From Flagellimonas yonaguniensis (GTDB lineage Bacteria; Bacteroidota; Bacteroidia; Flavobacteriales; Flavobacteriaceae): DNA of 64,000 nucleotides. The DNA lies in the NCBI RefSeq assembly GCF_029193885.1, contig NZ_JARFVB010000002.1, forward strand, positions 248,001 to 312,000, read 5' to 3'. Positions 3,278 to 41,455 of this stretch are shown in pieces. The first letter of the stretch is position 1; the number at the start of each line of letters is the position of its first letter. The translations under genes were made by a program, and so were the position numbers. The notes under the pieces are model-generated. The model saw only the letters and a list, made by a program, of their open reading frames with translations, did not search any database and was not told the origin of the DNA.

Positions 3278-3335
3278 TCCATAAAAATTACAAGTCATGC
3301 TGGATTTGTTTCAGCATCTCCTGATAATAAATGCA

Positions 3336-3367
3336 AAACCTCTTGGAGTTTACTTTGAGAGGTTTTT
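3336..3367 (+). terminator. intrinsic terminator after the aminotransferase gene
   Basis: Eight-base stem AAACCTCT (3336-3343) and AGAGGTTT (3358-3365), with the T-run continuing to 3367. It abuts the stop codon of trkH, which reads in from the other side. Confidence 0.75.
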
Positions 3368-4858
3368 TTACGTCTTTTTCCAGAAATATGGGGTAAGTAC
3401 GATCAGTACAGTGAAAAGTTCAAGACGCCCCAAAAGCATCAAGAAACTACACCACCACTTTCCTGCATCGGGAAGGCTGTTATAATTGCTCACAGGGTTC
3501 AAACTACCCAAAGCCGGTCCCACATTACCCAACGAAGAGGCAGAACCACCAACGGCCGACACAAAGTCCAAGCCCAAGAATCCGAGAACCAAAGACCCAA
3601 TGATAAAAAGCAACATGTACAGCACGAAAAAAGCCACCACGTTGTACACGATATGTTCCGTTACCGTTTTTTGATTGTAACGGACGGGAATCACCGCATT
3701 GGGATGCAAGGTTCGTTTAAATTCCAAAATACCGTTTTTGATAATCAGCAGGTGACGCATTACCTTGATCCCACCGGCTGTTGAACCAGCAGACCCTCCT
3801 AAAAACATCAAACCAAAAAAGAACACGGTCAAAAAGGGGGTCCATGAGGTAAAATCAGCCGAAACAAAGCCTGTTGTGGTAATCACGGCGATGACCTGAA
3901 ACAAGGTGTGCCTAAAGGCACTTTCCGCTTTTCCCAAAACCATGGGATGAAAATCCGACACAGGAACATCGGCCCTAAAATAAACGCCCAGTGCAGCAAT
4001 AATGGCAAAAACCACTATAAATCCGAAGTAATACTTGAACTCCTCGTCCTTAAAAACACGTTTTACCCGTCCTGTCAAGGCAAAATAACTGAGTACGAAA
4101 TTGCTTCCCGCCAAAAACATGAACAGGATGATGATATATTGAATCAATGGCTGATCGTTCCAAAAAGCCAAACTTGCATTTTTGGTGGAGAATCCTCCGG
4201 TTGACATGGTTGCCAAAGCATGGTTGATGGCATCAAAAAACGACATGCCCGCAAACTTCAACAATAAGGTTTCCAAAACCGTATATCCAAAATAGATAAG
4301 CCATAACCTTTTGGCGGTATCCGTAATCCTTGGGTGGAGCTTATCCCCTCCCGGGCCAGGTGCCTCGGCTGCGAACAACTGCATTCCCCCTATACCTAAA
4401 AGTGGTAGAATGGCAATGGCCAACACGATAATCCCCATTCCACCGATCCAATGGGTAAGGCTTCGCCAGAGCAGAATTCCTTCGGGCAGTGCTTCTATAT
4501 CATCTAAAATGGAAGCTCCCGTGGTGGTATAGCCCGACATCGTTTCAAAAAAAGCATCAGTAATGGAAGGTATCGAACCAGAAAAAAGATAGGGCAACAT
4601 TCCTGATATGGACATCACGATCCAACCAAAGGTCACAACAATGTATCCTTCTTTCCTTTTGACTTCTTTTTTATGTCCCCGTGTGTAGAACATGGCCATC
4701 ATCCCAAAAAGCATGGTCACAATGGCAGCTAACATGATATCCATAGTGGCACCATCCTTATAAATGCCACTGGCAAGTGCCGCCAATAGCATAAAAGAGC
4801 CGTTGCAAAGCAACAAGAGTCCCATGATATGGATGATGATTCGTGTATTGAGTTTCAT
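3368..4858 (-). CDS. trkH: Trk potassium uptake membrane subunit TrkH
   Basis: Potassium-translocating channel-like subunit of the Trk/Ktr family in the inner membrane. At 496 residues it has the expected multiple hydrophobic segments and four P-loop-like segments, for example around GYTTTGAS, MSTGGFST, ITTTGF and GGSAGSTAGG. I chose the ATG at 4856-4858 (MKLNTRIIIHIMG) because it overlaps the trkA stop as TAATG, a translational-coupling arrangement; a longer in-frame start would lie inside trkA. It works with TrkA, encoded directly upstream. Confidence 0.95.
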   Translation of the reverse strand: MKLNTRIIIHIMGLLLLCNGSFMLLAALASGIYKDGATMDIMLAAIVTMLFGMMAMFYTRGHKKEVKRKEGYIVVTFGWIVMSISGMLPYLFSGSIPSITDAFFETMSGYTTTGASILDDIEALPEGILLWRSLTHWIGGMGIIVLAIAILPLLGIGGMQLFAAEAPGPGGDKLHPRITDTAKRLWLIYFGYTVLETLLLKFAGMSFFDAINHALATMSTGGFSTKNASLAFWNDQPLIQYIIILFMFLAGSNFVLSYFALTGRVKRVFKDEEFKYYFGFIVVFAIIAALGVYFRADVPVSDFHPMVLGKAESAFRHTLFQVIAVITTTGFVSADFTSWTPFLTVFFFGLMFLGGSAGSTAGGIKVMRHLLIIKNGILEFKRTLHPNAVIPVRYNQKTVTEHIVYNVVAFFVLYMLLFIIGSLVLGFLGLDFVSAVGGSASSLGNVGPALGSLNPVSNYNSLPDAGKWWCSFLMLLGRLELFTVLIVLTPYFWKKT

Positions 4859-6207
4859 TAGAGGAACAGCTTTTCTATCCTTGGTATGGCCTTGGGCAAG
4901 CAACAGACCACGACCTTATCCCCTTCGGCAATCCTAAAATCCCCCAAGGCAATGATACCCTCCCCGTTTCTGATCACGCCACCGATACTTGCTTCCCTTG
5001 GAAAATTGAGTTCTTTGATGATTTCACCATTGACAAGTGAGGATGCTTTTACCTCAAACTCCAAAATCTCAGCGTTCAAATTGTTCAAACGGGTCAGGGC
5101 AAGTACCTCTCCTTTTCGGATATACCTAAAGATACTGTTGGCAGCAAGTAGTTTTTTATTGATGAGTGTATCCACCCCAATGGAATGGGACAACTGGAAA
5201 TAGTCCATGTTTTCCACCAAAGCAATGGTTTTCTTGATTTTTTTGTTTTTGGCCACCAAACAAGACATAATGTTGGTCTCTGAATTTCCCGTTACAGCGA
5301 TAAAAGCATCCATGGCCTCCAAGTTTTCCTCTTCCAACAGCTCCACATTCCGTCCATCCCCATTAATCACAAGCGCATGGGGCAGTTCATCCGCGATATC
5401 GAATGCTTTTTCCTTGTTCTTTTCGATCAATTTCACATTGAACTTTTTGTTGCAAAGGTCCCGTGCTGTTTTATAGCCGACCTTACTTCCTCCCAGGATC
5501 ATCACATTCTTGATGTCCTGCTTTTGCATTCCTGAAAGCTTGTACAATTCCTCAACTCCCTTATCGGAAGTAATGAAGTACACTTGATCGCCCTCTTTAA
5601 AAATGGTATCCCCCCTTGGGATTAAAGTAAACTGGGTTCCAGTTCGCTGAAGGGCAATGGGCATAAAATTGAGTTCGGGAAAAATTCTCGCGGCCTCTTT
5701 GACCATCTTCCCTACAAAAGGAGCGGTCTTAGGCAGAATTACCCCGAACATGGTCAATAATCCTTCTTCAAATTGATAGGTGTCGTTAAAAGCCGACTGA
5801 TTGAGCATCAACTGGATTTCCATGGCTGCGAGTCGCTCTGGGGAAATCAATTCATCAATCCCCAACTGATCAAATTTGATAAGTTCACGATTGTCCATGA
5901 ACTCCGTGTTGGAGATTCTGGCCATGGTACGTTTACAACCCAATTGCTTGGCAAGAACACAAAGGGTCAAATTGGTGGTTTCCGAAGCAGTGACCCCTAT
6001 AACAAGATCGGAGCTATCCACCTGTGCATCCTGCAATACCTGAATGGATGTGGCATCACCTCGAAGCACCCGAATATCCAAATGGTTATCCGCATAGGAC
6101 AATCTTTCCTTGTCGGTATCAATCAAAGTGATTTCCTGTGCTTCGTAGGACAACAATTTCGCCAAGTGGAACCCCACTTCACCAGCACCTGCAATAATGA
6201 TTCTCAT
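4858..6207 (-). CDS. trkA: Trk system NAD-binding regulatory subunit TrkA
   Basis: Cytoplasmic gating subunit that binds NAD(H)/nucleotides and regulates TrkH. It has two RCK-N/RCK-C halves: the first Rossmann motif is at the N terminus (IIIAGAGEVGFHLAKLL) and the second near residue 235 (VMILGGSKVGYKTA), each followed by an RCK-C domain. The length of 449 residues matches full-length two-domain TrkA. Its stop overlaps the trkH start by one base. The 167 bp upstream contain a 7-bp perfect inverted repeat (6241-6259). Confidence 0.95.
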   Translation of the reverse strand: MRIIIAGAGEVGFHLAKLLSYEAQEITLIDTDKERLSYADNHLDIRVLRGDATSIQVLQDAQVDSSDLVIGVTASETTNLTLCVLAKQLGCKRTMARISNTEFMDNRELIKFDQLGIDELISPERLAAMEIQLMLNQSAFNDTYQFEEGLLTMFGVILPKTAPFVGKMVKEAARIFPELNFMPIALQRTGTQFTLIPRGDTIFKEGDQVYFITSDKGVEELYKLSGMQKQDIKNVMILGGSKVGYKTARDLCNKKFNVKLIEKNKEKAFDIADELPHALVINGDGRNVELLEEENLEAMDAFIAVTGNSETNIMSCLVAKNKKIKKTIALVENMDYFQLSHSIGVDTLINKKLLAANSIFRYIRKGEVLALTRLNNLNAEILEFEVKASSLVNGEIIKELNFPREASIGGVIRNGEGIIALGDFRIAEGDKVVVCCLPKAIPRIEKLFL

Positions 6208-6377
6208 TGATTAGAATAGGATGTGTTCTTAAATAAACTCCATTTGTACGCTACAAATGACACTAAGAATGGTACGCTATACTTAAACTCCATACTTTTA
6301 ACCAAATACGGAAAATAAATCCCTTTGGAGGGCAAAATTACACAAATATTTTTGTCTGCATCCCTTTAGCTAAGTTG

Positions 6378-6385
6378 TATATTTG
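6378..6385 (+). promoter_or_regulatory. -7 element of the ubiE-porT promoter
   Basis: TATATTTG, a perfect TAnnTTTG match, lies 16 bp before the ubiE start codon. A TTTG at 6351-6354 could be the -33 element, with a spacer of 23 bp. Confidence 0.45.
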
Positions 6386-6401
6386 CCAGCAAATTGAAGC
6401 G

Positions 6402-7130
6402 ATGTCAAAAAAGGTAACGCCCTACAAAGAGTCTGAGCTCGGCAAGAAGGAGCAGGTAAAACAGATGTTCGATAACATTTCCGGCAATTACGATGGTCTC
6501 AATCGGGTTATTTCCTTGGGAACGGATGTAAAATGGCGCAAAAAAATAGTGGCCTTTTTAAAGGAGAAATCCCCTGAATCCATTTTGGATATAGCTACCG
6601 GGACAGGCGACCTTGCCATTGCGATGATAAAGACTGGTGCCGAAAAGATAGTCGGCCTGGACCTTTCCCCTGGCATGTTGGAAGTTGGCAAAACCAAGGT
6701 TTCCAACAAAAGCCTCCAAGACACCATTGAAATGGTGTTGGGCGATAGTGAAAACCTCCCTTTCGATGACAATTCATTTGATGCCATTACTGTGGCGTTC
6801 GGGGTACGGAATTTTGAAAATCTGGAAAAAGGACTCGAGGAAATCTACAGAGTACTGAAACCTGGAGGGCATTTTGTGGTTCTTGAGACTTCGGTTCCGA
6901 CCAAAACACCCTTTAAGCAAGGGTACAAGCTCTACACAAAATATATTTTACCAGCCATTGGCAAAGTTTTTTCCAAGGATAAATCCGCCTACAATTATTT
7001 GAGTGAATCCGCCTCAGTTTTCCCTCACGGGGAGGCTTTCAACAATATTTTGAAGAAAATTGGGTTTATAGGTGTAGAGAACAAACCACAGACCATGGGT
7101 GTAGCATCCATTTACGTCGCTTCAAAATAG
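6402..7130 (+). CDS. ubiE: demethylmenaquinone methyltransferase UbiE/MenG
   Basis: SAM-dependent C-methyltransferase that converts demethylmenaquinone to menaquinone, the last step of quinone synthesis in this lineage. Family motifs are clear: MFDNISGNYDGLNRVISLG near the N terminus, the SAM motif ILDIATGTGDLAI, and VAFGVRNFENLEKGL. I chose the ATG at 6402 (MSKKVTPYKE) over an in-frame start 27 bp upstream, because the upstream stretch contains the -7 promoter element. The product is 242 residues. porT follows with no spacer to speak of. Confidence 0.95.
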   Translation: MSKKVTPYKESELGKKEQVKQMFDNISGNYDGLNRVISLGTDVKWRKKIVAFLKEKSPESILDIATGTGDLAIAMIKTGAEKIVGLDLSPGMLEVGKTKVSNKSLQDTIEMVLGDSENLPFDDNSFDAITVAFGVRNFENLEKGLEEIYRVLKPGGHFVVLETSVPTKTPFKQGYKLYTKYILPAIGKVFSKDKSAYNYLSESASVFPHGEAFNNILKKIGFIGVENKPQTMGVASIYVASK

Positions 7131-28885: not shown

Positions 28886-30235
28886 ATGAAATCAACAATT
28901 CTGTTACTATTAATGGTTTTGACTTTTCCCCCATTAACTGCACAAAAGAGTCCTTATGAACATTTAAAGACACAGTTGCCGCCCGAAGATCTAAAGTCGG
29001 ATATTGACACTTGGTTTGATTGGTTGCATGCCACCCACCCCGATTTATCCTATACCGTAAAAGATATAGACAGGTTATATCAAAGTGTGGCACAAATAAG
29101 GGATAGTATTATCCATCCTATGGAAATTTTAGAGTTTTGGAAACGTATATCGCCCTTAAACAGTCAATTATCTGACGGACATACATTTGTTGGATATATC
29201 AACAGTACCATTGTTGAAGATTATATTTTAAATGGAGGAAATTTATTTCCTTTTGAAGTCATCTTCAACAAAGACGATCTGGTCATCCATTCTCTGATTG
29301 ATGGAAAACCTTCCGAATATATGGGACATCAAATAGTAAAAATCAACAACATTCCCATAGAGACCATAACATCTTCCCTATTGTCAAGAATAAATGGTGA
29401 TTCAGAAGAGCACCGGAAAGCCATATTGCAAACAAAGTTCTCCATATTTTATATGTTGATGTATGGAGAACAGCAGAAGTTCGACATTGAAGTACTGTAT
29501 GATAAAAAAACGCAGGTGATTTCCATAAATGGTATATGCGGCCTTCCCAAACTTTATCGGGAAGAAACCTTTGAAGACAATTTTGATTTAAAGATCCTGG
29601 ACCATGAAAATGCGGTGCTCACAGTCAATAGCTTTTGGTGGGATGACCCGGAAAGGTATTACTCCTTCATGGATACATCTTTTTCCGCTCTTCAAAGCCA
29701 TGGGATATCCCATTTGATAATCGATATACGTAAGAACGGAGGCGGTGATGATCAATTTTGGATGAAGGGCATATTAAGATATATTGCGGACAAACCCTAC
29801 CGTTGGGGATCAAACTACAAAAAGAAAATTATTGCCAAATTCAGGGACCCTGGTGAGGTCATTGGCTCCATTAAAGAAGGGGAAATAGATACATTGATTC
29901 CTGTTGACACCACAGCAACCAACACATTCAAAGGAAAAGTATCCATACTGATTGGCCCATATACCTATTCATCTGCCATTTTGTTCGCCAATACTGTTCA
30001 AGATTATACGTTTGGGCAACTGGTAGGAGAACCAACAGGAGGCAAGAGCGGGCAAACAGGTTCTATCCAATTCTTTAAGATGCCAAACACAGGACTTACA
30101 GCTGTCTCGCCACGATTTTATTTGGAAAGGCCCAATGGGGGGAAAACCACCGAACCCGTAACACCGGATATCATCATTGATTATAACAAATTGTCTCCTG
30201 ACGAACTCATTGCTTTTCTTTTAAATCAACATTGA
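28886..30235 (+). CDS. exported S41-family (tail-specific-like) peptidase
   Basis: 449 residues with signal peptide KSTILLLLMVLTFPPLTAQ. The C-terminal S41 domain has IIDIRKNGGGDDQFW, the nucleophile region GPYTYSSAILFANTVQDY (Ser in SSA) and VGEPTGGKSGQTG. Between them lies a weak PDZ-like region (SLIDGKPSEYMGHQIVKI NN-type). It is periplasmic or secreted; the substrate is unknown. Probably under control of the divergent MarR regulator. Confidence 0.85.
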   Translation: MKSTILLLLMVLTFPPLTAQKSPYEHLKTQLPPEDLKSDIDTWFDWLHATHPDLSYTVKDIDRLYQSVAQIRDSIIHPMEILEFWKRISPLNSQLSDGHTFVGYINSTIVEDYILNGGNLFPFEVIFNKDDLVIHSLIDGKPSEYMGHQIVKINNIPIETITSSLLSRINGDSEEHRKAILQTKFSIFYMLMYGEQQKFDIEVLYDKKTQVISINGICGLPKLYREETFEDNFDLKILDHENAVLTVNSFWWDDPERYYSFMDTSFSALQSHGISHLIIDIRKNGGGDDQFWMKGILRYIADKPYRWGSNYKKKIIAKFRDPGEVIGSIKEGEIDTLIPVDTTATNTFKGKVSILIGPYTYSSAILFANTVQDYTFGQLVGEPTGGKSGQTGSIQFFKMPNTGLTAVSPRFYLERPNGGKTTEPVTPDIIIDYNKLSPDELIAFLLNQH

Positions 30236-30623
30236 CTTAGCCAAGTCATTGTGTTTGACCAAGTCAAATCATCATATCTTGGGTAAAATCCAATGAGACA
30301 AGGCTCTTGATTCATCTCAAATTCCAACTTTCATCCAAATGGGAAACATGCAAAAACAGTAAACCATATTAGGTAATACAAAATACAACCAGCTATGCTA
30401 TGAACTTACTGTTTTTGCAAGATTTCCTCTTGAGCAAACAAACTATTTATCAATACAGATTGACCATTAGTAAAACCATAATGAAATTTGGCTATGAATT
30501 AAAAAAATCCGAGTAGTTCATTTATCCAGGTTACTTGAATCCCGCATAGGTGGCTCAGATTATCCGGCTTATCCATTGAATGGTTGCTTTAAGTTTTTCC
30601 ACGCCCAATTGACCGCATGAAAT
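30236..30623. other. 388-bp gap with an hxlR relic only
   Basis: Between the convergent S41 peptidase and MFS genes. Apart from the hxlR-like relic near its centre I see no gene, RNA or clear terminator. It contains repeated CCAAGTCA-type words near its left end (30240-30266) of unknown meaning. Confidence 0.5.
30440..30516 (+). pseudogene. relic of an hxlR-type regulator gene (3' end)
   Basis: Reading in frame to the TAG at 30514-30516 gives YRLTISKTIMKFGYELKKSE, which matches the C-terminal part of the intact HxlR protein encoded at 32936-33316 (VIETIMKFGYELIKEEG). At DNA level 30475-30500 and 33227-33252 differ at one of 26 bases. No intact domain remains upstream, so this looks like the degraded tail of a second regulator gene or a partial duplication. 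Confidence 0.55.
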
Positions 30624-31778
30624 TCACACTCGCATTTCTTTCACAAATTTCACTTTCATAAAAATCGTGAACAAGCACATCAGTAAGCAAACAATACTTG
30701 ACCATATTACATTGTGTACACCGTAACTTGCAATCCAAAACCCACCAAGTAGTGTACCAATCGTTACTGCAAGGTTCCCACATGAGGTAAACAAGCTATT
30801 TATCAATTCGGATGTACCGGATATGGAAGAAGTCAAATTTAAATTGCCGATCACAAACCCTCCCGTATGGATCAATCCCCAAATAGCCGTTATTAAGACT
30901 ATAAGCCAATAATACATTCCAAACCAATACACCAAAAGGTGTACACTGATCAATAACACAATAAAAAGGACAGTTGCTTTCTTTGGGTATTTTCCCATAT
31001 ATTTTCCAGCCAACCGGTTACCATATATCCCCATTGCACCAAACACCAAAAGCATTAGGCTAATATCCGTTCCATCCATCTTGGAAACCGACCCTAAAAA
31101 TTCGGCCATATAGGCATAGGTGGAATACATTGCCGTGATTATTAGAAACGTAATCAGAAAATTGACCCATAGAACATTGTTCTTTAAAATGCCCAAATCC
31201 CTTTTTTGGGCAACTTTCTTCTCCGTCTCGATCGGTGGCATGAAAAACCAAAGTCCCAGAACAGATACAAGATTTATTAGGGCCGACAACAAAAAGGAAG
31301 CCTGCCAACCAAATAAATCGGAAATATAAGTGGCCATGGGTACACCGAGAACGGTTGCAATGGTCAAACCCGAAAAAACCATGCTGACCGATTTGGAAGA
31401 GTCCCCATGAGTTGATTGTCGGGCCGCAATGGAAAGTGCAATGGACCAATAGACCGGATGAAAAAATGCCGGTACCATCCGTACAAATACCAAAACATAA
31501 AAGTGTTCGGATATGACCGAAAGCAAATTGGATACAACAAATATTACCAAAGAAAAAATCATAAGGTTTTTTCTATTGTAAGATGACAACCATTGGACCA
31601 TGAACGGACCAGAAAAGGCCACAACAATGGCAAATGCACTTAACATCAGTCCAGCCGTATCTATGGTCACGTTAAAGTAGGCTGCCAGGTCCGGCAATAT
31701 TCCGATTACGCCAAATTCTGTTGTGGTGATTCCAAAAACACCCACGGCCAAAGCGATCAAAATCCTGTTTTTTTCCAT
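30624..31778 (-). CDS. MFS exporter of the AraJ/YdhP (DHA1) type
   Basis: Twelve-helix major facilitator of 384 residues. The N terminus RILIALAVGVFGITTTEFGVIG and the PAFFHPVYWSIALSIAARQS segment resemble AraJ-like drug or sugar efflux proteins. A basic loop (SSYNRKN) follows TM2. Divergent from the propeller/hxlR operon; an operator candidate lies between. HxlR-type regulators commonly sit beside such exporters, so induction by a reactive small molecule is plausible. Substrate unknown. Confidence 0.88.
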   Translation of the reverse strand: MEKNRILIALAVGVFGITTTEFGVIGILPDLAAYFNVTIDTAGLMLSAFAIVVAFSGPFMVQWLSSYNRKNLMIFSLVIFVVSNLLSVISEHFYVLVFVRMVPAFFHPVYWSIALSIAARQSTHGDSSKSVSMVFSGLTIATVLGVPMATYISDLFGWQASFLLSALINLVSVLGLWFFMPPIETEKKVAQKRDLGILKNNVLWVNFLITFLIITAMYSTYAYMAEFLGSVSKMDGTDISLMLLVFGAMGIYGNRLAGKYMGKYPKKATVLFIVLLISVHLLVYWFGMYYWLIVLITAIWGLIHTGGFVIGNLNLTSSISGTSELINSLFTSCGNLAVTIGTLLGGFWIASYGVHNVIWSSIVCLLMCLFTIFMKVKFVKEMRV

Positions 31779-31826
31779 TTTCCCAGTTTTGGGACAAAGA
31801 TTGGAATTTGGGTTTTGAAATTGTCC

Positions 31827-31867
31827 ATACTTACATTTTGGTCCTATACTTACCTTTTTGTAAGTAT
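31827..31867. promoter_or_regulatory. HxlR operator candidate (perfect palindrome plus half-site)
   Basis: ATACTTAC (31846-31853), CTTTTT, GTAAGTAT (31860-31867) form an exact 8-6-8 inverted repeat. Another ATACTTAC half-site lies at 31827-31834, 19 bp upstream. It is between the MFS gene and the divergent propeller-hxlR pair; TACTTAC-type palindromes are typical of HxlR-family sites. Confidence 0.65.
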
Positions 31868-31890
31868 GAAAAACATCCTTGTTATGCTCG

Positions 31891-31898
31891 TAGATTTG
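31891..31898 (+). promoter_or_regulatory. -7 element of the propeller-hxlR promoter
   Basis: TAGATTTG fits TAnnTTTG, 13 bp before the start codon. No TTG at the ideal -33 distance; the palindrome at 31846-31867 ends just upstream of where -33 would be. Confidence 0.4.
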
Positions 31899-31911
31899 TC
31901 AAAAAAATAAA

Positions 31912-32931
31912 ATGAAACCCTTCTCTGTTTTAACCATCCTGTTATTGGTGGTTTTCCTACTCTTAAGTTCCGAATTTTATTCCCAGAACAACAATGCCCC
32001 TGATTATTTCATCAAGGGCATCGACAATCCGGAGGATTTAATAAAAGTAAATGGTACCGATTGGGCAATTGTTAGTTCCATGGTTTCCACAAAACAATCA
32101 TCCGGAGCCATTTTTGCATTGAATACAAAGAGCGAATCCATTATGCTACTGTTCCGCTTAATCAATGAACAAGACAATTATGATGGTTTGACCCACTTTT
32201 CGCCCCATGGAATATACCTGACACAATCTTCCGTTGGCAACTACCAACTTTATGTCATCAATCATGGAAGTAGGGAGGCAATCGAAATCTTTGACTTGAT
32301 CATTGTCGATAAATTACCAAAATTGAAATGGAAAAGGCATATCGACTTTCCAAAAAACGTCTGGGCGAATGGGCTTGTTGTGGATGGAGACGGAAGCATA
32401 TATGCAACAAGTATGTATGATCCGACCGAAAGTGATTTTCTTCAAAAATTTGATAAAGGGAACCCTACCGGTCAAATATGGAAATGGCACAAAACAAAAC
32501 TTGAGTGGCAACCATTGCTCCCCACCTTTTTTTCCGGAGCAAATGGCATAGCAATCTCGCCCAATGGAGAAAACCTATATGTATCTGAATGGGCAAGGCG
32601 AAAAGTCCATAAAATCTCATTGGCGAAAAAAAATATTACGGCATCGGCGACAGTTGGTTTTTTACCGGACAATATCCGCTGGTCCATAGAGGGCAATCTT
32701 TTGATTGCAGGCCAAAATGGCCGCCCTGTCGAGGTTTTTGAAAGCAAGGGAATTTCTATCAAAAACATGTACTTTAGTATTGTGGAAATGTCTCCCGAGA
32801 CCTTAAAATTTGAAGAGTTGATAAAGGGAGGTGGTGCGGATTTTGCAAATGCCACGGTAGCCATGGAGGCCAATAACCTATACTGGGTAGGTTGCGTTCA
32901 AAACAATAAAATAGCTGTTTATAAAAAGTAG
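31912..32931 (+). CDS. exported six-bladed propeller protein, paraoxonase/SMP-30-like
   Basis: 339 residues with an N-terminal hydrophobic signal (VLTILLLVVFLLLSSEFYSQ). Segments FSPHGIYL, YQLYVINHGSREAIEIF, GANGIAISPNGENLYVSEWA and LPDNIRWSIEGNLLIAG follow the order of paraoxonase/arylesterase blades (PON His-Gly, N-H, N-G-I-x-x-S-x-D and D-N motifs). Several calcium-ligand-type Asn/Asp residues are kept. Lactonase or esterase activity is possible. It shares an operon with hxlR (4 bp gap). Confidence 0.7.
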   Translation: MKPFSVLTILLLVVFLLLSSEFYSQNNNAPDYFIKGIDNPEDLIKVNGTDWAIVSSMVSTKQSSGAIFALNTKSESIMLLFRLINEQDNYDGLTHFSPHGIYLTQSSVGNYQLYVINHGSREAIEIFDLIIVDKLPKLKWKRHIDFPKNVWANGLVVDGDGSIYATSMYDPTESDFLQKFDKGNPTGQIWKWHKTKLEWQPLLPTFFSGANGIAISPNGENLYVSEWARRKVHKISLAKKNITASATVGFLPDNIRWSIEGNLLIAGQNGRPVEVFESKGISIKNMYFSIVEMSPETLKFEELIKGGGADFANATVAMEANNLYWVGCVQNNKIAVYKK

Positions 32932-32935
32932 TAGT

Positions 32936-33316
32936 ATGCCGGAATTTTTTCATGATAGAAAATTATATTATACCCCAATAGAGTTTGCGTTGAGCCATAT
33001 TGGAGGTACATGGAAAATGCCAATTTTATGGCGCTTGCAAGAATCTGTCCAACGTTTTAACGAACTTAAAAAAGATATTCCCCACATAACGGATAAAATG
33101 CTCACAAGCCAGTTACGGGAATTGGAAGCAAAGGGCATGATAAATCGAAAAGTCTATGCCGTAGTTCCCCCAAAGGTAGAATACAGCCTTACCGATAAAG
33201 GAATGCAAGCAATCCCTGTTATTGAAACCATCATGAAATTTGGCTATGAATTGATCAAAGAAGAGGGAATTGAATTTCCCTCTAAACAGCACAAGAATGA
33301 TGATATACCAAGTTAA
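32936..33316 (+). CDS. HxlR-family transcriptional regulator lacking cysteine
   Basis: Winged-helix regulator of 126 residues: PIEFALSHIGGTWKMPILWRL, RFNELKKDIPHITDKMLTSQ and VEYSLTDKGMQAIPVI. Most HxlR proteins have Cys-Pro before the first helix and some sense electrophiles with that Cys; here it is Thr13-Pro14, and the whole protein has no Cys. It should therefore sense by ligand binding or another route. Likely controls the divergent MFS gene and its own operon. Confidence 0.9.
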   Translation: MPEFFHDRKLYYTPIEFALSHIGGTWKMPILWRLQESVQRFNELKKDIPHITDKMLTSQLRELEAKGMINRKVYAVVPPKVEYSLTDKGMQAIPVIETIMKFGYELIKEEGIEFPSKQHKNDDIPS

Positions 33317-33384: not shown

Positions 33385-34791
33385 TTACAAATTGATGGCT
33401 TGATCATTATATGAGAGCCTAAAAGCATCTTTTAATGCTTCCGAATAGGTGGGGTGCGCATACGAAATGGAAAACATATCCTTTGCAGTGACCTCATACT
33501 CCATGGCCACTACCGCTTGAGCAATCAAATCGGCCGCTCTTGGTCCAATAATGTGTATTCCCAATATCTCGCCATATACAGGCTCTGACAATACTTTTAC
33601 AAAACCATCCTTTTCCCCTGCAGCCCTTGCTCTGGAACTCGCCGAAAAAGGAAACTTTCCTGTATTGTAAGGAATGTTCCGCCATTTGAGTTCCTCTTCG
33701 GTTTGCCCCACGGATGCCACTTCGGGCCATGTGTAGACCACCTTGGGGATTGCATTGTAATTGATATGCGGTTTTTGACCATCTATCCTTTCCACAACAA
33801 AAACACCCTCCTCCTCAGCTTTGTGTGCCAACATTGGACCTCTTATCACATCTCCAATGGCATATATGTTGGACTCATGTGTGGCAAGGTTTTCATCGAC
33901 CTTTATTCTACCGTTTTCATCAACTTGAACATTGGTGTTCTCCAAACCCAATCCTTTCGTATAGGCTTTTCTTCCAACAGCAACCAGAACATACGATGAA
34001 ACGGATCTTATATTTTCCCCTTTCTGGTTTTGGTAAATTACAACGGTACGGCCCCCTTCATTTTTGACCTCTTTGACTCTTTGCCCTAACAAAACTTGTA
34101 CCCCTTCCTTTGTCAAGACCTTCTTGAGCCCTTTGCCCAAATCACCATCCATGCCCGACACCAAGGAATCTGCATACTCCAGAACAGTAACTTTTGATCC
34201 GAACCTTGCGAATATGGATGCCATTTCACAGCCGATGACACCACCACCTATAATTATGAGACTTTCAGGAATTTCATTTAGGCTCAACGCCTCTGTAGAA
34301 GTAATAATTCTTTTCTTATCGAATACAACTCCGGGTATTGAAGCGGGCTTGGAGCCTGTTGCTATAATAAATCTGGATGATGGGATGGTAACAATGCCCT
34401 TATCGTTTTCAATTTTCACAGATTCATTGTTTAAAAATGATGCTTTACCCGTGATCACCTCAATATTGTTTTTTGACATGAGGTAATCGATACCTTTGGT
34501 ATTGGCATCGACAACCTTGTCCTTACGATGAAACACCTGCCCGACATTTAGCTGTGGTGGATTGATGTCTATTCCAAATTCCTTGAACTTCCCCCTTGCT
34601 TGATAAAATTTTTTGGAAGTATCCAACAATGCCTTGGAAGGAATACAACCAACATTGGTACATGTGCCTCCCAAGGAACCATACTTCTCCACAATTGCGG
34701 TTCGGTAGCCCAATTGTGAGGCTCGGATCGCAGCGACATATCCTCCTGGACCCGAGCCTATTACCATGATATCAAATTGGTTCTTCTTCAT
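33385..34791 (-). CDS. lpdA: dihydrolipoyl dehydrogenase (E3)
   Basis: FAD flavoprotein that reoxidises dihydrolipoyl groups with NAD+. The 468-residue chain has the FAD motif IGSGPGGYVAAIRASQLG, the redox disulfide GGTCTNVGCIPSKALL, the NAD motif IIIGGGVIGCEMASIFARFG and the C-terminal catalytic AHPTYSEALKDAF. No E1, E2 or lipoyl-domain gene is adjacent; instead it is last in an RND efflux operon, with one base between it and the pump gene. It may be a second, non-housekeeping E3. Confidence 0.93.
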   Translation of the reverse strand: MKKNQFDIMVIGSGPGGYVAAIRASQLGYRTAIVEKYGSLGGTCTNVGCIPSKALLDTSKKFYQARGKFKEFGIDINPPQLNVGQVFHRKDKVVDANTKGIDYLMSKNNIEVITGKASFLNNESVKIENDKGIVTIPSSRFIIATGSKPASIPGVVFDKKRIITSTEALSLNEIPESLIIIGGGVIGCEMASIFARFGSKVTVLEYADSLVSGMDGDLGKGLKKVLTKEGVQVLLGQRVKEVKNEGGRTVVIYQNQKGENIRSVSSYVLVAVGRKAYTKGLGLENTNVQVDENGRIKVDENLATHESNIYAIGDVIRGPMLAHKAEEEGVFVVERIDGQKPHINYNAIPKVVYTWPEVASVGQTEEELKWRNIPYNTGKFPFSASSRARAAGEKDGFVKVLSEPVYGEILGIHIIGPRAADLIAQAVVAMEYEVTAKDMFSISYAHPTYSEALKDAFRLSYNDQAINL

Positions 34792-34792
34792 A

Positions 34793-37700
34793 TTAAATCC
34801 TTTGCTTATATGTTACGGTCAACCATTTGTACAAAATGGGAACAACCAAAAGGGTCAATAAGGTCGATGAAATCATTCCTCCGATCAGTGTCCATCCCAA
34901 AGGGGACCAAAGCGATGTTCCCGAAGCTGTCAAGGGAAGCAATCCCACAATAGTTGTCAATGTTGTAAGTATGATGGGTGTAAACCTTCTTTTTGCAGCA
35001 GTTTTGATGGCTTCTATTTTGGAAAGCCCCTCTTTCAGGAGTTGGTTGGTATAATCAACAAGGATAATGGAATTGTTCACCACAATCCCCACAAGGCTGA
35101 TAAACCCGACAAATGCAAAAAATGAAAAAGACCATCCCGTAATAAAAAGGGCAATGAAAGACCCACTTATGGCCAATGGAATTGCAGAGAATATGATAAG
35201 GGGCTGTCGAATGCTCCTAAACTGCAAAACCAACACTGCAAAAATCAGTATCAATGCTACCATGAGCAACGTTCCCAAATCCCCAAAACTTTCAGATTGG
35301 GTTTCATATTCCCCGCCCACATGGTAAGTATAGCCATTGGGCCATTTATAATCCTTGAGTTTTTCTATTATGGATTCCGTAATTTTTCTGGTTTCCTCAG
35401 GATTCGTCACATTAGATGTTATTGCCGTATTCCTATCGGTATTGTAATGATTGATCTTTGCATAGTCTTGATCAAATTTGATGGAAGCAAGTTGACTCAA
35501 TAAAATATTCTCTCCTCTGGCGTTTGGTACGGATACTTTACCAAAATCCCTGATGGAAGGCCTGTCTTTAAAAGGTATTCTCAATACCAAGGGATATTCC
35601 TCATCCTCTTCGCTTATTTTGATTTTATCAATACTCAGTCCGTTTAAACTGGCCCGGACAGTTTGGTCAATATCAAACAATGAGACATTGTACATTGCTG
35701 CTTTATCACGGTTTATATCAACTTTGATATCCGTTTTGGCCCTTGCCAGGGGATTTTCCACATCAATGACCCCGGGTGTTTCGGCAATCAGGTTTTCTAT
35801 ATCGTATGATATTCTTTTAAGTGTTTTGAGGTCTTCACCTATAAGAAGAATTTCCACAGGGGCCTCGAAAGGAGCTCCATTCTGCAATTCCCTAAAAGAG
35901 ATTTTCCCATTGGGATTACTATTGAAAGCCTTTCGGAAACCGTTCAATGTATTGTGGAACCTTTCCTCATCCCATTCCTTGAAATTGATCAATACCTCAC
36001 CATGATATGTTTTGTACTCCTCTGGAATCCTATTGTAATAGACCTGTGGATTACCATGCCCCGCATTGGTTGTGTAACTTTGCACATAATCCGTTGTGTC
36101 CAAAACGGATTCTATAAAACGTAAGGTTTCATCCGTATGGTCAATGTTACTGGAATACGGTTGTTCCACACTCAGTAACAGCATGGGCTTATCGGCCGTA
36201 GGGAAAAAACTGACGCCGATTTTTGGGAACAATAGTATGGAACCGATCATGGTAAGGACTCCGATGAGCATGATCAACCATCCTTTTTCGAGGGCAAAAT
36301 CCAACGTCTTGGAATATTTTTTCTCTATAAAGTCCTCTAGTTTCTCAATAATAACGGATGACTTTGTGGTGTTTTTGTCCTTTAACAGTTTTTGGGCCAA
36401 AATTGGGGTAAATACCAATGCCAGAACCAATGAACCGACCAAGACAAATATGACAGTGAGGGGCAAACTGCGAAGAAATACGCCCGGCCCACTTTCCAAT
36501 AAGGCCAAGGGGGCAAAGGCCAAGACCGTGGTAATGGTGGAACTTACAATGGCATAGCCCACTTCTGCGGTACCCATGGCAGCCGCCTTACCTATACCGA
36601 ATCCTTCCTTTTTGAACCGAATAATGTTCTCCACTACCACAATGGCGTTGTCCACCAAAAGCCCCAAGGCTATCACCAATGAAGAAATACTTATTTGATG
36701 CAGGGCATATCCGGTAAAATCAAGAAGGATTATGGCAATCAGTATCGACAACGGAATTACCGTAACCACTATGGATGCAGGTCGCCATCCCAAAAAAACA
36801 AGGATTATGATTCCCACAAGAAACACACCCTGTAATAGGTTGTTCAAAAAATCGTTTATTCTTGATTTAACCGCCGGAGCCTGTTCAAATGGGGTTTCCA
36901 ATTGAATCGATGCCGGAAGTTTTTTCTTGAAATCTTTCGCTTTTTGGCCGATTTCTTCTGAAAGCGTTAAAATATTGCCCCCCTTTTTTTGATAAACCGA
37001 CAGATAGATCGCCTTTTCGCCATTGAAACGGGCAATCCATCTAGGATCCTCATAATCGTAATTGATATTTGCAATATTTTTTAGATATACAATTTGATTG
37101 TCTTGGGACGTAATGGCTATGTTCCTTATCTCATCCAGCGATTCATAGCTTCCCGATGATTTTATGTTGAATGTCAACTTACCGGACTTTAAGCTACCTC
37201 CTGGAATGTTTGCATTGTTGGACTTCAGGACATTGACGACCTGTTTGAGGCTAATGCCCACTTGGGACATTTTTTGAAAATCCAAACTTATCCTTATCTC
37301 TTCGTGGGGATAAGCTTCAATCTCCACTTTTTTTACCACGTTGGATTTTTCAAGATCCTTTTCAAGGTCTTCCGCCAAATCATAAAGTGTCCTGAACTCC
37401 ACATCTTTCGAAACCAGTGCGTATTGATGGACAACATTCCTATCCTCAGGTTTGTATTGATTGATATCGAGCTCCAAGATACCGGACGGGAGTTCGTTTC
37501 TTATTTTACCGATTTCCGTAACTATATCATCGTATTTTCCATCATAATCGATACCAAATTCTGCATCAACATTGATAACGGCCAGACCATTGGTAACCTC
37601 TGTTTTTATTTCATCGATGTCATCCAGTTCGTCAATCAATTCTTCAATGGGATCTACAATAAGCTCTTCCATATCCTCTGGGCTAGCTCCGGGGTAAACT

Positions 37701-37846
37701 GCGATAATGGAATATTTGGGCAACTCCAAAAAAGGATCTTCAGATCTTGGCATGGACTTGAAAGATTTGTATCCGATGAAGACCAGAAGGACTATACTGG
37801 TAATTACAAACAGCCTGTTTGAAATGGCTAAATGGGGTAATCTCAT
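34793..37846 (-). CDS. RND efflux pump inner-membrane subunit
   Basis: Proton-driven AcrB/HAE1-like pump of 1017 residues, with TM1, a large periplasmic loop (about 35-330), TM2-6, a second loop and TM7-12. The TM4 motif reads GLLVDNAIVVVENI, with Asp-Asn instead of the Asp-Asp of AcrB. The TM10 segment reads IILVDYTNQLLKEG, with no Lys at the AcrB Lys940 position, so proton coupling differs from AcrB. Start overlaps the adaptor stop (ATGA). Likely exports lipophilic compounds; substrate unknown. Confidence 0.92.
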   Translation of the reverse strand: MRLPHLAISNRLFVITSIVLLVFIGYKSFKSMPRSEDPFLELPKYSIIAVYPGASPEDMEELIVDPIEELIDELDDIDEIKTEVTNGLAVINVDAEFGIDYDGKYDDIVTEIGKIRNELPSGILELDINQYKPEDRNVVHQYALVSKDVEFRTLYDLAEDLEKDLEKSNVVKKVEIEAYPHEEIRISLDFQKMSQVGISLKQVVNVLKSNNANIPGGSLKSGKLTFNIKSSGSYESLDEIRNIAITSQDNQIVYLKNIANINYDYEDPRWIARFNGEKAIYLSVYQKKGGNILTLSEEIGQKAKDFKKKLPASIQLETPFEQAPAVKSRINDFLNNLLQGVFLVGIIILVFLGWRPASIVVTVIPLSILIAIILLDFTGYALHQISISSLVIALGLLVDNAIVVVENIIRFKKEGFGIGKAAAMGTAEVGYAIVSSTITTVLAFAPLALLESGPGVFLRSLPLTVIFVLVGSLVLALVFTPILAQKLLKDKNTTKSSVIIEKLEDFIEKKYSKTLDFALEKGWLIMLIGVLTMIGSILLFPKIGVSFFPTADKPMLLLSVEQPYSSNIDHTDETLRFIESVLDTTDYVQSYTTNAGHGNPQVYYNRIPEEYKTYHGEVLINFKEWDEERFHNTLNGFRKAFNSNPNGKISFRELQNGAPFEAPVEILLIGEDLKTLKRISYDIENLIAETPGVIDVENPLARAKTDIKVDINRDKAAMYNVSLFDIDQTVRASLNGLSIDKIKISEEDEEYPLVLRIPFKDRPSIRDFGKVSVPNARGENILLSQLASIKFDQDYAKINHYNTDRNTAITSNVTNPEETRKITESIIEKLKDYKWPNGYTYHVGGEYETQSESFGDLGTLLMVALILIFAVLVLQFRSIRQPLIIFSAIPLAISGSFIALFITGWSFSFFAFVGFISLVGIVVNNSIILVDYTNQLLKEGLSKIEAIKTAAKRRFTPIILTTLTTIVGLLPLTASGTSLWSPLGWTLIGGMISSTLLTLLVVPILYKWLTVTYKQRI

Positions 37847-38895
37847 TTTACTATTTGTATTGAATCGTTAGACCTTAGATATGCGGCACCTTCTATAACA
37901 ACAGAAGCATTCGGGGGAAGACTTTCCGTATCCACCACCATATAATCCTTTCCAAAATTTGAAACCTCCACCTCTTTTTCGATAGCGGTAAGACCATTCT
38001 CCGATATAAAGACTTTCCCAATTGTTCCATTGCCTTCAACCAATGCATCAATAGGGATTTTATATTTTTTGCTGTCAGCTCCCGGATAGAGTTCCACCTT
38101 GCCTATAAACCCGTTTTTTAGATCTTCGTGAAATCCTTCCAAGGTCAATTCCACATTGTACAAACCTGTACTGGCATTGGCAGAACTTGCTATTTCTGTC
38201 ACTATTCCCCTAAGTTGTTCATTGGGGACTGCATCAAATGACACCAATGCCATATCACTCAGTTTTATCCTTATGACATCCTTGTCCGCCAATCCTATCC
38301 GTACAACCTGCGAACCATCAAAACCGGATGTCCCAATTTTATAAATGGGCTGGCCTGGAGAAACAATCTCACCTACTTCCACATACTTCTTCAATATATT
38401 GCCACGATATGGACTATTGATTATGGCAAACTGACGGTTGAACCGGGCCGTGGTAAGATTGCTCTTTGCAATTTCACTCAGGGTTTCCATATTTTGGACC
38501 TGTTCCAAAGTCCCCACAGTATCCCTGTAAAGATTTGTGGCCCTATCAAAATCACGAATGGACTTTTCATAGGTATATTTGGCACTTTCCACTTGCGCAT
38601 TGATCTCCGATAAATTTAAATTGGCAAGCCTTTGGTTTTTATTTACCGTCTCACCTGCAGAAACATTCAGGGATTGAACGACCCCGCCGATTTTGAAAGA
38701 TAAGATCGCTTCCTCATTTGAAACCAACACCCCCGAAGCCGTTATCGGATCTATGGATCTTGACTGCTCGAGCGAAATAACCCTAACAGGTTTTTTGTTC
38801 GTTTTCAGTGATTTTTCAGCAGTCCTATATTCTTTTTTGCATCCAAAAAAGGTTATGACACCTATTATGATCAAGAGATAATTTGATTTTTTCAT
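37843..38895 (-). CDS. RND efflux periplasmic adaptor (membrane fusion protein)
   Basis: Lipoprotein signal LLIIIGVITFFGC (Cys at the end) followed by the lipoyl/barrel-sandwich halves (EEAILSFKIGGVVQSLNVSAGE and the later GNILKKYVEVGEIVSPGQPI), a short alpha-hairpin and beta-barrel domain. 350 residues. It bridges the pump and the TolC-like channel encoded on each side; two bases separate it from tolC and it overlaps the pump gene by 4 bp. Confidence 0.92.
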   Translation of the reverse strand: MKKSNYLLIIIGVITFFGCKKEYRTAEKSLKTNKKPVRVISLEQSRSIDPITASGVLVSNEEAILSFKIGGVVQSLNVSAGETVNKNQRLANLNLSEINAQVESAKYTYEKSIRDFDRATNLYRDTVGTLEQVQNMETLSEIAKSNLTTARFNRQFAIINSPYRGNILKKYVEVGEIVSPGQPIYKIGTSGFDGSQVVRIGLADKDVIRIKLSDMALVSFDAVPNEQLRGIVTEIASSANASTGLYNVELTLEGFHEDLKNGFIGKVELYPGADSKKYKIPIDALVEGNGTIGKVFISENGLTAIEKEVEVSNFGKDYMVVDTESLPPNASVVIEGAAYLRSNDSIQIVK

Positions 38896-38897
38896 TG

Positions 38898-40259
38898 TTA
38901 GAGTTGTAAAGTTCTTTTTAGGTTGGCCTCGGCTATTTTTATATTATACTTTGCAATCGAAACCTTTAACTGTGTATTTGTATAATTGATCCTTGCTTCG
39001 TTGAATTCGACCAGTGGCACAAGGTTTTCCCGATACCTGCTCTGAACGATCTTAAAATTTTCCTCTGCGCTTTTAAGACCTGCCAATTGTGCATCGAACA
39101 CTTTTTGACTCTCGGCAAACTGTAATAAAGCCGAATTGACCTGGAGTTTGATGGAATTTTTCAAGTCCTGAAGTTGAAGTTCCACCTGATTTCTGTAAAA
39201 CTGTGTTTTTTTAATCTCCGCTCTGTTTCTATTTCCCTTAAATAGTGGCCAGGTAAGACGAAGGTTGACCATGTAATATTCTTGCTCCCCATCAAAGTGA
39301 TATCCATAGCCCTGATACCCAAAATCGCCTATGACATTAATGTTAGGAATCAAGTAACTCTTGTCTTTTTTCAGATGGTATTGCAACGAATCGATGGAAC
39401 TCTGAACAGCCTTTATTTCTGAGCGGTTGTCAAGTGCCTGTTGTTCAAGATCTCCTGTCAGTGTGAAATTTGTTGTCATTTCACTGTCCACCAGTATAGA
39501 ATCATTTAAATTTCTATTCAGCAAGGTGTTAAAGTACATTTTGGAGGTGGAGACTTCCCTCTCGGCTGTTGCTATTTGTGCGTCCACATCAAAAATTTGA
39601 CTTTCGGAATTATAAATGATATCCCTAGTGGCTATGTGATATTTGACAAATTTTAAGTTGACCCTCGCCAATTCTTTCAGCAGGATTTGGGTGCTGTCCA
39701 AAATCTTTTTCTGTTCAAGGTTTTTTAAATAATCGTAATATGCCCTGGTAATTTCAAACTTGAGCTGGGCCTTGTACGATTCTTCTCTTGCCTTGGTGGC
39801 GGAGATATTGGCTTGTGAAGCTTTGTATTGGTAATAAATATCCGTGTTCAACAAGGGCTGTACGATTCTCACTTTTGTATCGTGAAAATCGTTTGGCAAA
39901 AATTGTTCATCAACGTTCTCAAGATCGGTGGGGAACTGATTGTTTCCATTGATATCGTTCAGACTGGAATGGATGGGGTTCAATAAATCGCCCAAAGGAA
40001 TGGCTATGGACCTGCCTCCATTTGAAATGCTGTAATCCGCACTCAAGAAGATATCGGGGTACAACTGTCCTTTTGCAATCTTGTTTTCCTGTACACTTAT
40101 ATTGCTTTCCATTTGTGCCTGAAGGAATCTTTGATTTGACTTTATTCCCTCTTCGATATACTTGTCCAATACGGATTGACCAAAAGAGATTTGATGACCG
40201 AACAGGGCAAAAGCAATTATAAAAAGATAGGTCGGGTATGATACTTTTTTTGATCTCAT
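38898..40259 (-). CDS. TolC-family outer-membrane efflux channel
   Basis: Outer-membrane factor with signal peptide (ending GHQISFGQ), two repeated outer-membrane efflux domains and long coiled alpha-helices (AQMESNISVQENKIAKGQ, LKSAEENFKIVQSRYRENL). The ATG at 40257-40259 (MRSKKVSYPTY) is chosen; the in-frame extension upstream overlaps the thiolase gene and is not hydrophobic. 453 residues. Twelve or so bases separate it from the thiolase stop. Confidence 0.9.
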   Translation of the reverse strand: MRSKKVSYPTYLFIIAFALFGHQISFGQSVLDKYIEEGIKSNQRFLQAQMESNISVQENKIAKGQLYPDIFLSADYSISNGGRSIAIPLGDLLNPIHSSLNDINGNNQFPTDLENVDEQFLPNDFHDTKVRIVQPLLNTDIYYQYKASQANISATKAREESYKAQLKFEITRAYYDYLKNLEQKKILDSTQILLKELARVNLKFVKYHIATRDIIYNSESQIFDVDAQIATAEREVSTSKMYFNTLLNRNLNDSILVDSEMTTNFTLTGDLEQQALDNRSEIKAVQSSIDSLQYHLKKDKSYLIPNINVIGDFGYQGYGYHFDGEQEYYMVNLRLTWPLFKGNRNRAEIKKTQFYRNQVELQLQDLKNSIKLQVNSALLQFAESQKVFDAQLAGLKSAEENFKIVQSRYRENLVPLVEFNEARINYTNTQLKVSIAKYNIKIAEANLKRTLQL

Positions 40260-40270
40260 GAGATTAACGG

Positions 40271-41455
40271 TTAGTTTTGAAGGTTCTCGAATATTCCGGC
40301 CACTCCTTGCCCTCCTGCCGTGCATGCCGTGACCATACCGTATTTGGAATTTCTCCTTCTCATCTCATGAATTAAGTGAATGGCCAATTTGGTTCCAGTG
40401 GCCCCAAGGGGATGCCCCAATGCAATGGCCCCACCGTTGACATTCACTTTTTCAGGGTCTAGTTCAAGTTCTTGGATAACGGCAAGTGCCTGGGCGGCAA
40501 AAGCTTCGTTCAATTCATACAAGTCTATATCTTCTAGCCCAAGACCGGCCTTGCCCAAGACCATCGGCACTGCCTCCACAGGGCCTATTCCCATAAAAGC
40601 AGGATGTACACCCGTTGCTCCATAGCCCAACATCCTTGCCTTAGGGGTCAAATTGTGTTTTTTCACAAAATCTTCCGAAGCGATCAAAGTAAAGGCGGCA
40701 CCATCGCTTAGGGGAGAAGAATTCCCAGCTGTTACGGTACCACCTTTTTTAAAAGCAGGTTTAAGTTTTGCCAAAGCATCCAATGAAGTGGTTGGCCTAA
40801 AATGCTCATCTTGATCAATTCTTTCCGAAATGTTCTTTACATTACCATCAACATCAATTTTCCTTCCATTGGCGATGATAGGTACAATTTCATCCTCAAA
40901 TTTATGTTCTACGAGGGCCCGCCATGCTTTTTTATGGGATTCCAATGCAAAAACATCCTGATGCTCACGTGATATCCCATATTTAGCGGCAACATTTTCT
41001 GCAGTCAATCCCATGTTGATGAAATAGTCTGGATGTTTTTGTACCATTTCGGGGTTTGGTGAAAACTTGGTACCTCCCTCGGCGATCAATGTCATACTTT
41101 CCGTTCCGCCAGCTATAATAACATCGGCCATGCCACTTTGGATTCTTTGTACGGCAATGGCCATCGCCTCAAGCCCCGATCCACAAAAGCGGTTGATGGT
41201 CAAACCAGGAACAGACATCGGTAGGGCCATCAATGAGATGAGACGTGCCATTTGCATACCCTGTTCGGCTTCCGGATAGGCGCAACCAAGAATCAGGTCG
41301 TCAATCTGTTCCGGATCTATGTTTGGTACCTCTTTCAATAAGTGATTCACAACCTGTACGGCTATATCATCAGAGCGCATGTTCTTGAATGCTCCTTTAT
41401 GGCTTTTACCCACAGGACTTCGATATCCATCGATTATATAAGCTGTTTTTGACAT
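40271..41455 (-). CDS. thiolase (acetyl-CoA C-acyltransferase, FadA/FadI type)
   Basis: Thiolase-fold enzyme cleaving or forming 3-ketoacyl-CoA. Nucleophile Cys in INRFCGSGLEAMAIA, then NEAFAAQALAV, GGAIALGHPLGATG (His) and the second Cys in TACTAGGQG. 394 residues, all four catalytic blocks intact. It is the first enzyme after tetR in an efflux operon with no hydroxyacyl-CoA dehydrogenase or hydratase partner, so a standard beta-oxidation role is doubtful; a biosynthetic or detoxifying role is possible. Confidence 0.92.
   Translation of the reverse strand: MSKTAYIIDGYRSPVGKSHKGAFKNMRSDDIAVQVVNHLLKEVPNIDPEQIDDLILGCAYPEAEQGMQMARLISLMALPMSVPGLTINRFCGSGLEAMAIAVQRIQSGMADVIIAGGTESMTLIAEGGTKFSPNPEMVQKHPDYFINMGLTAENVAAKYGISREHQDVFALESHKKAWRALVEHKFEDEIVPIIANGRKIDVDGNVKNISERIDQDEHFRPTTSLDALAKLKPAFKKGGTVTAGNSSPLSDGAAFTLIASEDFVKKHNLTPKARMLGYGATGVHPAFMGIGPVEAVPMVLGKAGLGLEDIDLYELNEAFAAQALAVIQELELDPEKVNVNGGAIALGHPLGATGTKLAIHLIHEMRRRNSKYGMVTACTAGGQGVAGIFENLQN

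Follow-up and report, generated by a model that had tools for sequence, protein, structure and literature searches.

RESULTS

Organization of the locus

The stretch of DNA that was analysed (64,000 nucleotides, referred to as the window) belongs to Flagellimonas yonaguniensis, whose genome comprises 4.29 Mb in 44 contigs. Between an S41 peptidase gene and a dihydrolipoyl dehydrogenase-like gene the window contains three genes only, coding for an MFS transporter, a paraoxonase-like propeller and an HxlR-type regulator (Table 1). The propeller and hxlR genes are on the same strand and are 4 bases apart, whereas the MFS gene is divergent from this pair, with a palindrome and an additional half-site lying in between. 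Inspection of the reading frames and their coordinates confirmed the three-gene layout described in the initial annotation, as well as the perfect palindrome and half-site between the divergent genes, and the common strand and the short gap agree with its placement of the regulator in the propeller operon.

Table 1. Genes and predicted sites at the locus (positions in the window)
Feature	Position	Strand	Remarks
S41 peptidase gene (flank)	28886-30235		Pfam/NCBIfam scans
Decayed MFS-HxlR remnant, upstream intergenic stretch beyond the MFS gene	30359-30507	.	nucleotide similarity
MFS transporter gene	30624-31778	-	384 aa; Pfam MFS_1 (PF07690)
Extra predicted operator half-site, MFS side	31827-31834	+	ATACTTAC
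Predicted operator, perfect 8+8 palindrome	31846-31867	.	ATACTTAC-N6-GTAAGTAT; conserved near HxlR orthologues
Candidate -7 promoter element for the propeller-HxlR operon	31891-31898	+	TAGATTTG; weak
Paraoxonase-like six-bladed beta-propeller gene	31912-32931	+	339 aa; Pfam SGL and Str_synth
HxlR/DUF24 winged-helix regulator gene	32936-33316	+	126 aa; Pfam HxlR
Dihydrolipoyl dehydrogenase-like gene (other flank)	33385-34791		Pfam/NCBIfam scans

The flanking dihydrolipoyl dehydrogenase-like gene, whose matches in the genus do not exceed 54% identity, is next to an RND efflux operon (OEP, HlyD, AcrB), lying 1 base past its gene for the AcrB-type pump; gene and operon together span 33385-40325. 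The gene content also includes a TonB receptor with a CarboxypepD_reg domain and DUF4249, as fits Bacteroidota.

The propeller resembles PON1 in fold and active-site residues

The best match of the propeller among PDB sequences was PON1, both with the single protein (E 3.4e-8) and with a 14-row profile (E 2.6e-14). PON1 was also the first hit when the predicted model of the protein (pLDDT 86.4, pTM 0.85) was used in fold comparison (TM 0.75; for 3srg Z 35.2 and 2.6 A over 299 residues). Among the matches listed, the Z score was about 35 for PON1, at most 29.2 for strictosidine synthases and about 27 for DFPase and Drp35, which places PON1 ahead of the next fold family by about 6 Z units. The description of the protein as a six-bladed paraoxonase-like propeller was borne out by these results, although identity to PON1 (PDB 3srg, 1v04) in the fold alignments was only 20-23%.

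According to PMC7766523, the catalytic calcium of PON1 is held by N224, N270, N168, D269 and E53, and H115 and H134 form a dyad. The window protein was aligned with 13 relatives that have full-length ORFs and are 21-32% identical; L063, a near-copy of L062, and L067 and L068, both cut by contig ends, were left out. In all 14 rows E41, D42, N153, N211, D253 and N254 (window numbering) are invariant and correspond to E53, D54, N168, N224, D269 and N270 of PON1. The window protein also has both dyad residues, as H99 and H118, so that the five calcium ligands and the histidine pair, whose absence would have spoken against the proposed enzyme, are all retained. Of the two histidines, H118 is conserved in 12 of the 13 relatives and H99 in 7; the remaining six have Gln, Arg or Ser in the position of H115, and lactonase chemistry is therefore not shared by the whole family. 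A difference from PON1 was seen at D169, which is replaced by G154 in the window protein and by Gly, Ser or Ala, never Asp, across the 14 rows. D169 belongs to the second calcium site of PON1, and because of its replacement this site of the propeller is probably different.

In scans with family models the propeller matched Pfam SGL and Str_synth only; no PON/arylesterase family model was matched at E 0.001, and NCBIfam gave nothing. For this reason we call the protein PON-like rather than PON, and its fold and residues suggest that it would be PON-like also in its working. It has a hydrophobic N-terminal stretch (about residues 6-24), from which export is probable. The idea that it hydrolyses lactones or aryl esters gained support at the level of the active site and the fold, and no further; one of these two would be the likeliest substrate class judged from sequence and model. 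To our knowledge, few of these bacterial PON-like propellers have a known natural substrate.

The transporter is probably of the efflux kind

The MFS protein matches PF07690 with 137.4 bits (cut-off 33.4). Its nearest NCBIfam models are PRK03545 (SotB), named 'sugar transporter' (201 bits, cut-off 401), and the Cmx/CmrA chloramphenicol efflux family (182 bits, cut-off 400). Both matches extend over nearly the full length, but the scores are about half of the respective cut-offs, and the protein is a member of neither equivalog group. It is probably a transporter of the drug/metabolite efflux kind (DHA1), with outward transport as the predicted direction. The best full-length match in 60 genomes of the genus was 31% identical, and in 295 genomes of the class there was one match at E 1e-45 besides the protein itself (32%), with no HxlR gene seen by eye in its 1.5-kb flanks. 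No HxlR of the window type was found in the MFS loci L036-L049 (E 1e-4).

The regulator lacks the sensing cysteine

Membership of the regulator in the HxlR family is clear (PF01638, 105.1 bits, cut-off 20.8), and its relatives in the PDB are 7kd3 and 7bzd. The latter, the winged-helix protein HxlR of Bacillus subtilis, matches residues 8-104 with E 7.8e-26, but has Cys11 where the window protein has Thr13. According to PMC7835342, the DUF24 regulators that have been studied sense electrophiles by means of a conserved cysteine near the N-terminus, which in B. subtilis HxlR is Cys11. Such a residue, characteristic of the thiol-sensing proteins YodB, HypR, QsrR and HxlR of B. subtilis, is missing from the window protein, which has no cysteine at all in its 126 residues; neither the DUF24 thiol switch nor the Cys-Lys formaldehyde switch of B. 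subtilis HxlR (PMC7835342) is present. The absence of cysteine is common in the orthologues (23 of 25 readable sequences; L105 has two and L108 one). Induction by quinones, which had been suggested for both operons, is therefore excluded by the usual thiol route, and the regulator more likely responds to a ligand that it binds.

The orthologues were collected in two steps: 19 were found in 247 genomes sampled from the class (match starting at residue 1, 54-68% identity), and the 7 best from 69 genomes of the genus were added (three with 69-72%, four with 45-52% identity). In the HxlR tree the window protein groups with these orthologues. The host genome codes for 9 HxlR proteins in its 4.29 Mb; 7 of the 8 others formed, together with the HxlR of L066 (see below), a separate group with a support of 0.997, in which the empty row L138 was also placed.

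The predicted operator accompanies the HxlR clade

In shuffled versions of the window the palindrome occurred on average 0.18 times with up to 3 mismatches allowed, and in the real window once, without mismatch. Its core, ACTTACN6GTAAGT, is found at a single place in the 4.29-Mb genome, the reversed pattern used as control at none (exact matches only). When the 150-base stretches preceding the HxlR starts were searched with at most 3 mismatches in the 14 fixed bases, L122-L131 and weaker HxlR rows being left out of the count, near-copies of the operator were detected in 17 of the 26 orthologue loci, against 0.39 expected from Markov shuffles. For the first 19 orthologues the numbers were 14 and 0.28 (plain shuffles). 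The nine loci without an upstream operator were L106, L109, L113, L118, L120 and L135-L138, of which L138 runs off its contig end; in L135-L137 the hxlR start codon is overlapped by an operator-like site (2 or 3 mismatches). In 12 larger loci (about 141 kb) there were 15 operator sites, 11 of them at the hxlR start and 4 elsewhere.

These observations show that the operator tracks the HxlR regulator across genomes whose neighbouring genes differ, and this conservation ties it to the clade at the level of sequence. They are good evidence, though not proof, that the HxlR of the window binds the palindrome, and the proposed control of both divergent genes by HxlR is well supported. No report of such an operator was found among the open-access papers listed.

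The sequence TAGATTTG upstream of the propeller is a candidate for the -7 promoter element, whose consensus in Bacteroidota is TAnnTTTG. We consider this candidate weak because no TTG is present at the usual -33 spacing from it and sigma-70-type sites were rarer in the region than in shuffles (6 compared to 10.5).

Orthologues of the regulator usually face DJ-1/PfpI genes

In 19 of the 26 orthologue loci the gene next to hxlR matched DJ-1/PfpI, and the orientation was divergent in all 19; Pfam confirmed the identity of all five of these proteins that were scanned. In L105 and L106 the place of DJ-1/PfpI is taken by a gene for an F420-type NADP oxidoreductase, followed by an SDR gene (from Pfam for L105, by eye for L106). 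DJ-1 together with an oxidoreductase is found in L136 and L137 and, as read from the sequences, in L139-L141. The DJ-1 protein of L104 has a signal-like stretch at its start.

This divergent HxlR-operator-DJ-1/PfpI module (L103-L121, L132-L137) is present in many genomes of the class. It has an orthologous regulator and the operator in common with the window locus, but there the partner genes are an MFS pump and a PON-like propeller. Neither an MFS protein nor a propeller like those of the window was found near the 26 HxlR orthologues (flanks up to 1.5 kb, E 1e-5) or in the 12 larger loci (flanks up to about 6 kb, E 1e-3). The HxlR regulator and its operator are therefore widespread, and it is the partner genes at the window locus that are unusual. 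Searches of the open-access literature returned no paper on an HxlR-operator-DJ-1 module or on HxlR with a divergent PfpI gene.

Relatives of the propeller and search for the three-gene set

Searches with the single propeller protein in three overlapping samples of 148, 395 and 395 genomes yielded matches in 5, 5 and 17 genomes, respectively, including its own; all others were partial, with E 2e-9 or weaker. A profile search of 345 genomes gave three, again including its own (E 1e-8). The genomes of the same genus within the 148-genome sample had no propeller. Among plasmids 16 records were obtained: 6 with at least 80% cover, 3 with 71-73%, and 7 short SGL-type matches. Seven of the nine better-covered records were used, H5 and H9 being apparent repeats of H4 and H8. 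Phages gave no match at E 0.001 and pattern scans of viral contigs were negative. The first scan of genome contigs found none, the second nine loci. The relatives come from Alphaproteobacteria, Gammaproteobacteria, Acidobacteria bins and one Rhodococcus plasmid. L019, L058, L059 and the weak single-protein matches were rejected as other propellers not close to the window protein (L058 has the appearance, by eye, of a distant PON relative), and L015 appeared unrelated by eye.

The relatives have varied neighbours. On a Novosphingobium plasmid the propeller gene has carboxylesterase and alpha/beta hydrolase genes as neighbours, and a TonB receptor gene is close by; in L060 and L065 it adjoins amidohydrolase-like genes, named from sequence only; elsewhere, in separate loci, a formaldehyde dehydrogenase or a LysR regulator is the neighbour. 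A Nitratireductor plasmid carries it beside an MFS gene and an HTH protein gene, in the order HTH-MFS-propeller. This row was rejected as the same set, as the HTH protein fits XRE-type models and not HxlR, and the MFS protein has no blastp match to that of the window (E 0.001).

The initial annotation had proposed to look for the same three-gene set elsewhere. We did not find it in the genomes and loci covered: an MFS protein of the window type was present in none of the 16 propeller loci (E 0.001), and such an MFS or propeller in none of the 26 HxlR loci. MFS-looking ORFs noticed by eye in L055, L056 and L061, and about 0.65 kb from hxlR in L144, did not match the window MFS at E 0.001. One of the 16 propeller loci, L066 from Pseudohongiella, has an HxlR gene (51%). 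We did not count it as support, because its product groups in the tree with other HxlR proteins and not with that of the window, and because a single hxlR gene in the roughly 150 kb concerned is about what chance would give, the host genome having 9 in 4.29 Mb. The hxlR gene of L066 is divergent from zinc-type oxidoreductase-like, alpha/beta hydrolase-like and PON-like genes (3135-6972), the first two again assigned by their sequences. No paper on HxlR together with a paraoxonase was found in the open-access literature.

A remnant next to the MFS gene

Beyond the MFS gene, positions 30359-30465 resemble bases 30716-30818 of this gene (67%, E 5e-7). After a single intervening base, positions 30467-30507 resemble the 3' end of hxlR at 33219-33259 (85%, E 1e-6). 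This is what a second MFS-to-HxlR unit would leave on losing its middle, and the fusion argues for a longer-standing association of pump and regulator at this place. The remnant also includes part of an imperfect inverted repeat of 27 bases (30336-30432), whose arms are 43 bases apart. Since the sampled genomes of the genus have no propeller and the best MFS match in the genus is so distant, the three-gene unit appears patchy in distribution and was probably acquired or assembled in this lineage.

DISCUSSION

The explanation that we prefer, with a probability of roughly one half, is that the locus is a chemical-defence unit that regulates itself and that, within the set of genomes searched, only this species has. 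Dimers of HxlR would occupy the palindrome in the intergenic region, perhaps with weaker occupancy of the half-site, and thereby repress the pump gene on one side and the propeller-HxlR operon on the other. The DNA would be freed from HxlR by a small compound that the regulator senses by other means than a cysteine switch. The MFS protein would expel this compound, if it transports outward as predicted, and the propeller, whose active-site residues and fold are established on the sequence and the model, would be exported and, acting as a calcium-dependent PON1-like hydrolase, open a lactone or aryl-ester bond outside the inner membrane. Such a pump-plus-hydrolase logic is plausible.

Several observations argue against a defence unit. 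The three genes were together in no relative found, and the esterases, amidohydrolase-like proteins, formaldehyde dehydrogenase and different MFS protein near the propeller relatives fit catabolism equally well. Both closest NCBIfam models of the MFS protein score under their cut-offs, 9 of the 26 orthologue loci have no upstream operator at 3 mismatches, the region offers neither a -33 element at the usual spacing nor a promoter-like excess, and 6 of the 13 propeller relatives have another residue in the position of PON1 H115.

We regard as unlikely that the unit is catabolic, with extracellular hydrolysis of a lactone or ester from the environment by the propeller, the MFS protein importing or exchanging the freed acid as food and HxlR sensing the substrate. 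The hydrolase genes and the TonB receptor on the Novosphingobium plasmid, the amidohydrolase-like neighbours in L060 and L065 and the MFS and XRE-type genes on the Nitratireductor plasmid would fit this assumption. It is opposed by the three genes being alone between the S41 peptidase and dihydrolipoyl dehydrogenase genes, by the HxlR clade mostly facing DJ-1/PfpI genes elsewhere, and by the second-best NCBIfam match of the transporter being a chloramphenicol efflux family, the first bearing only the name 'sugar transporter'.

The prevalence of divergent DJ-1/PfpI genes points to another explanation, which we do not think likely either, namely that a carbonyl or electrophile response was re-used: the ancestral signal of HxlR, as for its DJ-1/PfpI and NADP oxidoreductase partners, would still induce the locus, and the pump and propeller, captured by this control, would act on whatever accompanies the stress. 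DJ-1-type proteins act on reactive carbonyls, and the F420-type NADP oxidoreductase in some of the loci, accompanied in L105 by an SDR and replacing DJ-1 there, is consistent with such a response; the sensing cysteine of the studied DUF24 proteins, however, is missing from the window HxlR and from nearly all readable orthologues.

Quenching of acyl-homoserine lactone signals is very improbable, for although PON2 is reported to hydrolyse such lactones (PMC7915308, PMC4684340), no pointer to signalling was seen in the locus or its relatives, and a signal outside the cell would need no exporter. Roles of the unit in the turnover of organophosphates or homoserine lactones, both of which had been considered, are unsupported.

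As to the origin of the proposed defence unit, we offer a tentative and rather doubtful scenario: HxlR and its operator may be a portable switch in the class, usually set on DJ-1/PfpI, sometimes with an NADP oxidoreductase, and here connected anew to a pump and to a PON1-type lactonase that is secreted, the unit having later been duplicated and one copy lost. If this were true, a cysteine-free sensor would answer a class of ligands destroyed by DJ-1-type and PON-type enzymes alike. A local repressor combined with a pump and a hydrolase is a familiar kind of system; new here are this combination of genes and the change of HxlR partners. The HxlR-operator-DJ-1 module, which many genomes of the class share, is accessible to experiments in cultured strains. 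The window locus provides a genetic context for a bacterial PON1-like enzyme with intact active-site residues, and the compound that releases HxlR would be a good candidate for its substrate.
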